Source: a virus
Virus record (IMG/VR): IMGVR_UViG_3300015360_000134
Span: 1 to 30,966 of that record
DNA: 30,966 nt
Direction: 5' to 3' (one strand)
Shown in pieces: positions 1,465 to 29,523 of the stretch (the first letter of the stretch is position 1; each line of letters begins with the position of its first letter). The position numbers and the translations under genes were made by a program. Under the pieces are notes generated by a model. It made no database searches, was not told the DNA's origin, and worked only from the letters and a program-made list of their open reading frames with translations.

Positions 1465-1641
1465 ATGAAAAAAAATAATACACATAATCAGTATCATAAA
1501 AAAGACTTAAGTCTTGTTCAGGTGAGAATTCCAAAATCTCTAAAAACAGAGATGAGTCTAAAGCTTAAAGAAAAAAGAATGACCTGGGTTTTTTTCGTTC
1601 AAACTACCATTGAAACCTACATTAATAGTCATCCAACTTAA
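1465..1641 (+). CDS. Small ribbon-helix-helix (Arc-like) regulator
   Basis: This 58-residue protein starts at an ATG and ends TAA. Residues 16-53 fit the ribbon-helix-helix plan: a short strand (LSLVQVRIPKSL) whose alternating residues would contact the DNA major groove, a first charged helix (KTEMSLKLKEKRM), a T-W turn and a second amphipathic helix (FFVQTTIETYINSH). Such proteins bind as dimers to short inverted repeats and act as phage or plasmid repressors. The gene is divergent from the ERF operon and sits upstream of the replication operon, a classic regulator position. No clear ribosome site is seen. An upstream ATG at 1457 is closed by a stop after three codons. Fold assignment is from pattern; targets are unknown, candidates being the repeats at 1436-1457 and 1745-1767. 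Confidence 0.65.
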   Translation: MKKNNTHNQYHKKDLSLVQVRIPKSLKTEMSLKLKEKRMTWVFFVQTTIETYINSHPT

Positions 1642-1848: not shown

Positions 1849-2625
1849 TTGGCTCGATTAACAGATGGTTGGATTAAACTGCATCGCGATCTTTTAGAAA
1901 AAGAAGACATCATGAGCAAACCGAGCCGTTTGGCTGTCTGGATTTGGCTGCTCTTAACCGCTAACTACAAGCCGTCAAGAATCGATTGGAAAAGTAAGCC
2001 TCGGGACCTCCCTGCAGGGGCTGTTTTGTTTGCTGTAGAAGAGGTTAGCGTGACGCTCCATATCAATTCTCGCGTGATCAGAAATGAGCTGAAATACCTC
2101 GAATCCGCACGGGTAATTGAGTATAACACGTGCCGTCACGTAACTAAGGGTTCGCTTGTTTTGATAATAAATTGGGACACTTACCAGTTTGACGCTGACG
2201 CTCTGGTAACTAGAAGGGAACTAGAAGGTAACTACAAGGTAACTAGAAGGGAGTTAGAAGGTAACCTTATAAAAGAAAGTACAGAACATAAGAAAGAAAG
2301 AAACACATACAACCCCTTCAAATTTGAAATCGAAGAATGTCTTCAGGAATGGGAAAATACTTTACGGAAATTCGGGATTAATAAACCAGCTCAGTTGGAT
2401 GAAATTCCTATTGGTAGTTTGATCCAAAGATTTGGGTTTGAAAAAACTAAGCTTGCACTTTTGGGTGCAGGCTTCGAAGCAAGTTCCACAAACTTTGACC
2501 CAACTAAACACGTTACAATTACACGACTATCAAAGTCGGGTTTATTCGATAAGTTCGTCAACCTCGGTGCTCAAAACCAACCCAAAGATCGACATGTTCA
2601 CGGTCTCAACTCGGAGAACGTATGA
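1849..2625 (+). CDS. Replication initiator (lambda O-like), with iterons inside the gene
   Basis: This 258-residue protein begins at a TTG codon behind a strong GGAGGGGG ribosome site. Residues 6-110 match the N-terminal winged-helix domain of phage replication organisers: GWIKLHRDLLEKEDI, a tryptophan-rich LAVWIWLLLTANY, the LPAGAVLF turn, then SVTLHINSRVIRNELKYLESARVIEY as recognition helix and wing, ending with INWDTYQF. Residues 120-140 are a linker in which VTRRELEGN occurs twice, because the DNA carries 11-bp repeats there. The C-terminal half (from about residue 150) is a helical domain, probably the contact to the helicase. The next gene is a DnaB-type helicase overlapping by 4 bases. 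Role in origin binding and helicase recruitment is inferred from lambda O. Confidence 0.75.
   Translation: MARLTDGWIKLHRDLLEKEDIMSKPSRLAVWIWLLLTANYKPSRIDWKSKPRDLPAGAVLFAVEEVSVTLHINSRVIRNELKYLESARVIEYNTCRHVTKGSLVLIINWDTYQFDADALVTRRELEGNYKVTRRELEGNLIKESTEHKKERNTYNPFKFEIEECLQEWENTLRKFGINKPAQLDEIPIGSLIQRFGFEKTKLALLGAGFEASSTNFDPTKHVTITRLSKSGLFDKFVNLGAQNQPKDRHVHGLNSENV
2206..2260 (+). repeat. Five tandem 11-bp iterons: candidate replication origin
   Basis: Five consecutive 11-bp units, consensus GTAACTAGAAG, run at 2206, 2217, 2228, 2239 and 2250, with a half unit at 2261. They are followed by an A-rich, purine-biased stretch (about 2267-2310) suited to strand opening. They lie inside the initiator gene between its two domains, the same arrangement as the lambda origin in gene O. 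The repeats are seen directly; the origin role is inferred. Confidence 0.7.
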
Positions 2626-3500
2626 TTTTACCCTACGCAGATGCGTTCACTGCCTGGCTAGAATCAGCCCAAGAATTAGCAAAACCTCCAAAGGGCGTAG
2701 CTTTGCCTCTGTGGCCAAAGTTCAACGAATACCTAGGTACCATGCGCCCTCACGAGCTAACGCTGCTCTGTGCGCCCACTGGGGCCGGTAAAACGGCATT
2801 ATTAGCTTCGTTGTCGTCCCAACTTCTCACTTTAAGCATTCCGCACTTTGTCGCGCCTGTTGAAACCGGCCATCACGACTTCACAAATCGAGTCATGAGC
2901 TGTTTAGGAAAAACAGATCTCAATCACGGCGGATTAATTCAAAAAGAAGTGCTTCAAAAAATACATGAGCAATGTTCTCCGACACTAGGACGTGGGAATC
3001 TTAAGATTGGAACCTATGATAATCGGGTAGAGGTCGCCGACATGATCAACATGTTGAAGTATCAGCATCAAGAGTATGGATGCCGAGTTGCACTCCTTGA
3101 TAACCTGAATTTTTTCTTAAGGGTTGTTTCCTCTCAAAATGAGAAGCTTGAGATGGACAACACGGTCCATGAGTTTGTGATGCTTTCAAAATATCTTCCT
3201 ATGCATATCCTACTTATCGTTCATCCACGAAAAACAGATGGGGGCAGAGTGCTTTCGGAGTTTGATATTAAAGGCAGCTCTACCGCCGTTCAGGAAGCCG
3301 CCAACGTCATTTTATTTAATCGCCCATCGGAAGAGCAAATCAAACAAGGACACTACCCCACGGACCGGGAATTGGTGTTTAGGAAAATCCGTAAACGCGG
3401 AGCCTATGTTGGGAAACCAATTTGGTTGACCTACATTCATAACCAATATTTTGAGGTAGAGAATCATGAACATCAGCCAAGCCATAGAATCCCTAAATAA
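2622..3500 (+). CDS. DnaB-type replicative helicase, ATPase domain only
   Basis: This 292-residue protein carries the RecA-like core of replicative helicases: Walker A APTGAGKT near residue 51, catalytic glutamate in APVETG near 80, Walker B VALLDNLNFF near 155, the IKGSSTAVQEAANVILFNR segment (motif H3) near 210-228 and the basic RKIRKRGAYVGKP (motif H4, arginine finger region) near 250. It lacks the N-terminal primase-binding domain of full DnaB (about 450 residues), so priming must be done by another protein. It overlaps the initiator stop by 4 bases (ATGA). It acts at the phage replication fork. An ATPase of the DnaC or RadA kind is less likely because motif H3 is present. Confidence 0.85.
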   Translation: MILPYADAFTAWLESAQELAKPPKGVALPLWPKFNEYLGTMRPHELTLLCAPTGAGKTALLASLSSQLLTLSIPHFVAPVETGHHDFTNRVMSCLGKTDLNHGGLIQKEVLQKIHEQCSPTLGRGNLKIGTYDNRVEVADMINMLKYQHQEYGCRVALLDNLNFFLRVVSSQNEKLEMDNTVHEFVMLSKYLPMHILLIVHPRKTDGGRVLSEFDIKGSSTAVQEAANVILFNRPSEEQIKQGHYPTDRELVFRKIRKRGAYVGKPIWLTYIHNQYFEVENHEHQPSHRIPK

Positions 3501-5208: not shown

Positions 5209-5293
5209 TGGCACGCCAGCGGGGATTGAACCCGCGACCTCTCCAAGTGTGTTCCCCTTACTAAGAGCGCTCTGACCGCTGAGCTATGGCGCA
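5209..5293 (-). tRNA. tRNA-like gene, anticodon unresolved
   Basis: The minus strand shows a convincing tRNA frame: acceptor (T)GCGCCA pairing with TGGCGT(G), then TA, D-arm GCTC-AGCGGTCA-GAGC, T-arm GCGGG-TTCAATC-CCCGC, and an encoded CCA at the 3' end. Between D-arm and T-arm there are 33 bases instead of about 23. The best anticodon stems, CTCT with GGAG or CTCTT with GAGAG, leave a 17-19-base loop, and the alternative loop TTAGTAA (anticodon AGU) has only three pairs. So the amino acid cannot be assigned. It may be a class II-like, degenerate or unusually inserted tRNA. The 5' end overlaps the resolvase stop. Confidence 0.65.
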
Positions 5294-28275: not shown

Positions 28276-29523
28276 TTAAAGACTTAATCCTAGTGTATCG
28301 GACTCAGGGATTGGGTCAACTAAGGTTAAGAGTTCGGCTTTCTTCCCGGTGTAAAGTTCCCAACGTGTTACGATCACATCACAAAAATGGGGTTCAATTT
28401 CCATTAGAAATGCTTTTCTATTCGATTTTTCACAGGCGATCAGCGTTGAGCCAGAGCCGCCAAATGTATCTAATACTAATCCGCCCATGGCGGTGGAGTT
28501 TCCAATTAAATACACTAAAAGCTCTACCGGTTTTGTTGTTGTGTGAAGATCTGAGCTGTTTGGTTTATCAAACTCTAAAACAGAATCCTGTTTCCGGTCA
28601 GCGTACCACTCATGTGTCCCTTTCTTCTTCCATCCATAAAGAATGGGTTCGTGACGATAATGGTAATCAGATCGTCCGAAAACGAATCTGGACTTAACCC
28701 AAATAAGTTCGTGTCTCACCAGCCATCCCGCCTCACCCAGCATCATCATCATCATCATCATCATTTGATCTCCGCCTTGACAGGCAAACCAATAATAAGA
28801 AGATTTATCCTTAACCGCCATCAAAGCAGATGTAGCTACGTCTCTCCAAAATAGACTCATTTCCTCTATAGGTAATGAGTCATTCTGTATTTTTTTAAGT
28901 TTAATATTGGAGTTCTCAGATTCGTAGTTTACTCCATAGGGTGGATCGGTGAGCCAAAGATCCGCCAATTCAGAGTTCATTAATTTTTGTATATCAGATA
29001 ACTGAGTTGAATCCCCACACATGAGCCGATGTCTGCCGAGCTGGTAAATATCCCCGAGCTTTGTACGAGGCTCTACCTTTTCTGGTATCTCATCTTCATC
29101 GCATTGAGGATCGAGCTTCTCGAAGAGATCGAGCGTAAAGTCTTTGATCCCTAGAAGATCGATATTGAAGTCAGGACCTAAGTCCGCAAGATCCATGTTG
29201 ATGGCCTTGAGATCGAGTTCCGCCCAGGAAGCGACTGAGTTATCAGCGATGAGATCCGCGTACTCTTGCTCATCTGTTTCGTAGTCTTGATAGTTAACGG
29301 GAACGCCGTTCCATCCATTTTGATGAGCCGCCATGAGTCGCCCATGACCAGAGGTGATGTAGCCCGAACGTTTAGAGACTTTAATTGGGCAGCGCCAGCC
29401 TTGATACTTCAAAATCTGAGCTAAGCGCTCGATTTGATCGGGGGGATGGGTGTTTCGATTCTTTGGATGAGCTTTGAGTTCGGAAACCTGGACCATTTGG
29501 TCAAATTTGCAATGAACCTTCAT
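28276..29523 (-). CDS. ParB-like domain fused to a DNA methyltransferase
   Basis: In this 415-residue protein residues 1-100 are a ParB/Srx nuclease-like domain (VSELKAHPKNRNTHPPDQIERLAQILK and SGHGRLMAAHQNGW). Residues 140-400 are a beta-class N6-adenine or N4-cytosine methyltransferase: catalytic DPPYGV near 196, W-x-K-S-R-F near 275, TTKP near 325, and SAM-binding DTFGGSGSTLIACE near 352. Such fusions are common in phages beside terminase and may protect the genome or mark it for packaging. Near residue 258 it has a run of eight methionines from an (ATG)8 tract. No restriction partner is seen. Confidence 0.88.
   Translation of the reverse strand: MKVHCKFDQMVQVSELKAHPKNRNTHPPDQIERLAQILKYQGWRCPIKVSKRSGYITSGHGRLMAAHQNGWNGVPVNYQDYETDEQEYADLIADNSVASWAELDLKAINMDLADLGPDFNIDLLGIKDFTLDLFEKLDPQCDEDEIPEKVEPRTKLGDIYQLGRHRLMCGDSTQLSDIQKLMNSELADLWLTDPPYGVNYESENSNIKLKKIQNDSLPIEEMSLFWRDVATSALMAVKDKSSYYWFACQGGDQMMMMMMMMLGEAGWLVRHELIWVKSRFVFGRSDYHYRHEPILYGWKKKGTHEWYADRKQDSVLEFDKPNSSDLHTTTKPVELLVYLIGNSTAMGGLVLDTFGGSGSTLIACEKSNRKAFLMEIEPHFCDVIVTRWELYTGKKAELLTLVDPIPESDTLGLSL
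28741..28764 (-). repeat. Trinucleotide microsatellite (ATG)8 in the methyltransferase
   Basis: Eight perfect CAT units on the plus strand encode Met8. Length changes would add or remove methionines without breaking the frame. Confidence 0.95.

Follow-up and report, generated by a model that had tools for sequence, protein, structure and literature searches.

An 11-bp iteron array within a phage initiator gene and its probable role as an embedded replication origin

Where replication starts is hardly ever known for uncultured phages. In the 30,966-base window analysed here (the window being the whole stretch of viral DNA under study), an 11-bp tandem repeat lies within the gene for the replication initiator, and an initial annotation had read it as an origin of the lambda type. 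The question raised by this locus is whether the repeat is a set of DNA sites at which the initiator would start replication, or whether it serves some other purpose at the level of DNA, RNA or protein. If the former were the case, then origin, initiator and binding specificity could all be read from one gene.

The repeat and the gene that carries it

The initiator gene (1849..2625, plus strand; TTG start, 258 aa) encodes a DnaD-like helicase loader, or replisome organizer, the N-terminal domain of which was matched by profile to phrog_2514 (E=8.7e-15) and phrog_186 (E=1.8e-9). No Pfam family matched the initiator, its C-terminal domain included, and a fold search returned generic winged-helix regulators alone (MarR, ArsR, and CodY). 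AlphaFold2 predicted a winged-helix DNA-binding domain at residues 1-113 (GWIKLHR...NWDTYQ; 1849..2187), with block-mean pLDDT values of 83-98 for residues 11-110. In this model, helices span residues 63-70 and 74-86, and wing strands span residues 90-95 and 101-106; the helix-turn-helix codons (residues 63-86) are located at 2035..2106. The domain is followed by a linker predicted at low confidence (pLDDT about 44-55), the start of which is encoded by the array, and then by a helical C-terminal domain of medium-to-low confidence (2311..2622) that presumably recruits the helicase. The next gene encodes a DnaB-like helicase (2622..3500, plus strand; PF03796, E=1.2e-8; phrog_239, E=1.3e-29) and overlaps the initiator stop by 4 bp. 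The plan put forward in the initial annotation, in which an array between the two initiator domains is followed by an A-rich stretch and then by the helicase gene, holds in this window and across a large family of initiators. Upstream of the initiator, a 58-aa ORF (1465-1641, plus strand) resembles, by appearance, a ribbon-helix-helix regulator.

When the window was examined by TRF, the top-scoring tandem repeat was an array at 2205-2265 (plus strand; period 11, 5.5 copies, score 87). The 11-bp period within the initiator gene had been recognized correctly before, but the extent given then, 2206-2260, needs correction to these limits. The repeat unit is GGTAACTAGAA, or GAACTAGAAGG when written in the phase of the family motif described below. 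Units start at 2205 (GGTAACTAGAA), 2216 (GGGAACTAGAA), 2227 (GGTAACTACAA), 2238 (GGTAACTAGAA), and 2249 (GGGAGTTAGAA), with a partial sixth unit at 2260 (GGTAACCTTAT). The self-match score at lag 11 was 25, compared with a maximum of 12 at any lag of 7-30 when the whole window was Markov-shuffled 20 times, and with a best self-match of 16 when the codons of the initiator gene were shuffled (n=1000). These data confirmed that the 11-bp repeat within the initiator gene is real. No second array was found in the window, isolated unit matches elsewhere being at chance level, and a search for DnaA boxes gave loose matches only, none of them at the array. Cumulative GC skew, which had been suggested as a check, lent no support, as a local maximum rather than a minimum was found near 2250-2500; the skew of the window is governed mainly by gene orientation.

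As the unit length of 11 bp is not divisible by three, the reading frame shifts from each unit to the next. Translation of an array of identical units would give VTRR*LEGN*KVTRR*LEGN*, with four in-frame stops, and the real array differs from it at all four (TAA to GAA, TAG to TAC, TAA to GAG, and TAG to CTT). The remaining changes, the end of the array aside, are confined to unit 5 and are synonymous (GAA to GAG and CTA to TTA). Given that each would-be stop unit departs from the repeat at that very point, the repeat is a DNA feature that the protein tolerates. The encoded repeat VTRRELEGN(YK) is present as initially described, and the alteration of all four would-be stops strongly supports the view that this peptide repeat is a secondary consequence of the DNA repeat. 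Among 76 family arrays, 33 contain units in which one of the frames would hold a stop, and it is at those sites that these arrays are broken. Such breakage follows from the open frame; it still shows that the repeated entity is the DNA unit and not the peptide.

Conservation across the initiator family

Relatives of the initiator were found by tblastn in phages of Listeria, Staphylococcus, Pseudomonas, Shewanella, Pseudoalteromonas, and Anoxybacillus, and no close relatives of the window were recovered when viral and genome collections were scanned with degenerate peptides. Nearly all of eight distant phage relatives (N-domain identity 24-35%) had an array of 11-bp or 22-bp periodicity in the same place. 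As the nine-row alignment was too divergent to serve as a query, several hundred loci were gathered by using DNA patterns for the GWIKLHR motif, and were counted as clusters, that is, initiators sharing <60% N-domain identity; phrog_2514 was matched by 98 of 98 aligned relatives. Immediately 3′ of the N-domain codons, at a median distance of 15 nt, 76 of 128 clusters had a strong lag-11 array, compared with 3 of 600 control ORFs, and those three were antisense readings of family arrays. Mean autocorrelation in the linker was 0.52, 0.47, and 0.45 at lags 11, 22, and 33, respectively, and 0.40 at lag 12 (shuffled, 0.33); it was nearly flat over the N- and C-domains. When significance was assessed by per-gene shuffles (0.05), a one-turn repeat was detected at the array position in 152 of 166 clusters versus 16 of 250 control segments. 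Relatives that keep an intact initiator and lack the repeats had been named as evidence that would speak against an origin; 14 of the 166 clusters were without a significant phased repeat, several of these being truncated or doubtful homologs.

The median copy number of the family arrays was 4.5, and several members (e.g., L352, L335, L211, and L223) have steps of 12 bp instead of 11 bp. A one-turn (11/12 bp) array after the N-domain codons is a feature found here in phrog_2514/phrog_186 loaders, the window initiator included. These loaders occur in phages of Bacillota and Pseudomonadota, as well as in contigs assigned to other groups. Their C-terminal domains are swapped between members, being of the DnaB_2, Phg_2220_C, or lambda O type, which fits a portable cassette composed of the N-domain and its iterons.

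The family units align to the motif RAMCARCAARY in a single orientation, with 8.1 bits compared with 5.7-5.9 bits when positions were permuted. The window unit is a divergent fit to this motif, with T at position 5 and G at position 7; its phase score against the motif was 2.3, and that of the next phase was 0.0. An A-rich purine tract follows the array at 2266..2310 (plus strand), with AAGAAAG-type motifs at 2273, 2290, 2294, and 2298, and is a candidate unwinding element. As the initial annotation had stated, the sequence past the array is rich in A (50-54%, with A+T of 68-70%, at 2241-2330). In the 60 nt past the family arrays, A exceeded the gene mean in 70 of 70 cases and A+T in 69 of 70. 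A ACAAGAATGATAAGAATGTAAAGAA-type tract recurs downstream of the arrays in about half of the family, where it takes the form (AAGAATG)n with 9-bp spacing; two spaced AAGAA[TA][GA] motifs were found in 51% of family genes but in none of 532 A-rich controls. Moreover, Lys-Asn codons are AAGAAT in 84% of cases within the tract, compared with 21-22% elsewhere, and the constraint therefore acts on the DNA. The tract of the window has the looser AAGAAAG form (2273-2304), not AAGAATG.

Covariation of unit bases with the binding domain, and readings of the array

N-domain residues were compared with unit bases in 97 arrays through contingency tables and a partial Mantel test. Once overall similarity had been corrected for, columns 59, 71, and 75 alone exceeded every permutation; all three are in the helix-turn-helix and correspond to V63, R75, and N79 of the window. 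C4 was present in 46 of the 47 arrays with Arg-59, compared with 15 of the 50 without Arg (p=2e-13), and A1 in 18 of the 22 arrays with Gln-71, compared with 7 of the other 75 (p=1.5e-10); these p-values are on the optimistic side, as they assume independent clusters, but within the protein the columns of the helix-turn-helix still stand out. In loci fetched later, for which the unit phase was determined in a joint fit with the first set, C4 accompanied Arg-59 in 14 of 14 arrays versus 1 of 7 without it. The same pairing was seen in a subset of 25 sequences with <40% identity (12 of 12 versus 3 of 13), in which column 14, outside the helix-turn-helix, also ranked high, as expected with many tests. 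Since the unit bases covary with helix-turn-helix residues, the iterons are very probably bound by the N-domain of the initiator. The window itself is an outlier, having V at residue 63 where most C4 arrays have R, together with T5 and G7, and its contacts are therefore extrapolated from the family. That the repeats and the protein change together in distant relatives suggests that each gene records the recognition target of its own protein.

We consider, with a probability of about 0.88, that this segment supplies the initiator-binding sites of a phage replication origin, the origin itself lying inside the gene for that initiator; it is from sequence comparison that we infer this function. 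The N-terminal winged helix would bind successive 11-bp units in head-to-tail order, so that each helical turn carries one monomer and all monomers lie on one face of the DNA. By analogy with lambda and plasmid origins, the resulting nucleoprotein complex would strain the adjacent A-rich tract and lead to its opening. The C-terminal domain would then recruit the product of the following gene, the DnaB-like helicase, as gene order and the domain swaps suggest.

A different function at the DNA level, though improbable, is that of an autoregulatory operator, at which the initiator would control its own transcription or translation while replication starts elsewhere. Binding by the N-domain, as supported by the covariation, would look alike in an operator and in an origin. 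However, the array sits about 350 bp inside the gene, away from the promoter, and a conserved A-rich tract comes after it in about half of the family; moreover, embedded arrays already known from phages with this general layout serve as origins (80alpha, PMC5499656; Tuc2009 and TP901-1, PMC8965321). Even less credence is given to a repeat at the protein level only, that is, a flexible, fast-evolving linker grown by slippage and devoid of any function as DNA. The array does lie in the low-confidence linker, and linkers tolerate repeats, but a peptide repeat needs a period divisible by three, and a period of 11 crosses all three frames. Nor would such a linker account for stops that are avoided one by one, for spacing and motif that recur in 152 of 166 independent genes, or for bases that covary with DNA-binding residues. 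That the repeat acts at the RNA level, e.g., by controlling translation of the initiator mRNA, can practically be dismissed, as the region is transcribed but its folding energy is ordinary (z = -0.73) and no Rfam family was found at the array.

Relation to known embedded origins

The principle of an embedded origin is already known from lambda, SPP1, Tuc2009, 80alpha, and pSK41. The lambda origin lies in gene O and shares the layout seen in the window, with iterons between the DNA-binding and partner-binding domains, then an A-rich stretch, and a helicase-loading gene next. The lambda units had been said to be longer, and they are: the lambda annotation has four 18-bp iterons at steps of 20-24 bp, about two turns, in contrast to the 11-bp spacing of the window. 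By family profile, the N-domain of lambda O (Phage_rep_O, PF04492) was not detectably related to that of the family, and the C-domains of the window initiator and lambda O gave no alignment. The initial designation as a lambda-like origin is accordingly apt for layout but not for descent, the initiator being a DnaD-like winged-helix protein and no member of Phage_rep_O; the predicted origin is one that works like lambda ori, yet it is outside the lambda O family. The initiator of Pseudoalteromonas phage HS2 (L003:2501-3271) combines the family N-domain and 11-bp iterons with a C-domain of lambda O, 46% identical over 71 aa.

For the P335 lactococcal initiators Tuc2009 Rep and TP901-1 Rep, a repeat-rich origin inside the initiator gene, bound by the initiator, has been described (PMC8965321). 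The N-domains of the P335 replisome organizers (Tuc2009 Rep, r1t ORF11, and TP901-1 Rep) were not detectably related to the family by profile. Nonetheless, Tuc2009 Rep (L374:4097-4879) and r1t ORF11 (L375:4896-5630) have 11-bp steps, as does the window, and given this spacing despite the undetectable N-domain relation, one-turn spacing may have evolved on more than one occasion. The TP901-1 repeats, unlike those of the window, have 15-bp steps. Origins embedded in the initiator gene have also been reported for SPP1 (G38P) and for the staphylococcal phage 80alpha, the latter with genetic support, in that ORF20 could not be complemented in trans and ORF20-21 support the replication of a plasmid (PMC5499656). 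80alpha ORF20 differs from the window initiator in its HTH_36-type N-domain and its 15/30-bp repeats. HTH_36-type N-domains and repeats in 15-bp steps or multiples were found in 80alpha (L372:4440-5210), TP901-1 (L373:3748-4566), and pPR9 (L371:23537-24562), and repeat pitch seems to follow the class of the N-domain. On the basis of 15-bp steps and HTH_36 N-domains, pPR9 and 80alpha were rejected as members of the same class as the window. Judged by sequence, the family belongs to none of the lambda O, Tuc2009/TP901-1, 80alpha, and pSK41 groups. Among other candidates, the DnaD of Lactobacillus phage phig1e was placed outside the class of the window, and the Vibrio VBR1 replicon was unrelated.

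In RepA_N plasmid initiators (pSK41 and pTZ2162), the repeats occupy a central position in the initiator gene and are bound by the DnaD-like winged-helix N-domain that this gene encodes, and the C-domain is host-specific (PMC5703833). The RepA_N Rep boxes are longer and form semi-palindromes that flank an A tract (PMC7145576), whereas the window unit is not palindromic. No RepA_N proteins were among the matches listed in PDB profile and fold searches with the window initiator, nor was there a Pfam match.

The present variant is distinguished by its one-turn class of iterons, by the AAGAATG tract, and by the code that links residues to bases. The freely searchable literature yielded no account of iterons with one-turn spacing, or of a recognition code, for this class, although priority is uncertain; a class of such iterons whose recognition code is readable appears to be undescribed in searchable papers. 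Because site and binder share one gene, a recognition code (e.g., Arg at helix-turn-helix position 59 with iteron C4) could be read from sequence alone. We regard it as somewhat more probable than the contrary that a large and widespread class of initiators shares a portable cassette made up of a winged helix, the one-turn iterons belonging to it, and an (AAGAATG)n tract for opening, with interchangeable domains for helicase recruitment attached to the cassette and a code readable in this manner. If true, origins and incompatibility groups would become predictable for thousands of uncultured phages, and predicted sites would be supplied for origin-based phage interference. It would also become testable how the binding specificity of an initiator evolves while its site stays under protein-coding constraint.

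Two further observations were made elsewhere in the window. Its sole tRNA gene, a tRNA-Leu with anticodon AAG, is located at 5210-5293 on the minus strand. In addition, a (CAT)8 run at 28741-28764 lies inside a ParB-N/DNA methyltransferase gene (28276-29523, minus strand), where it encodes eight or more Met codons, and is possibly a phase-variable tract.
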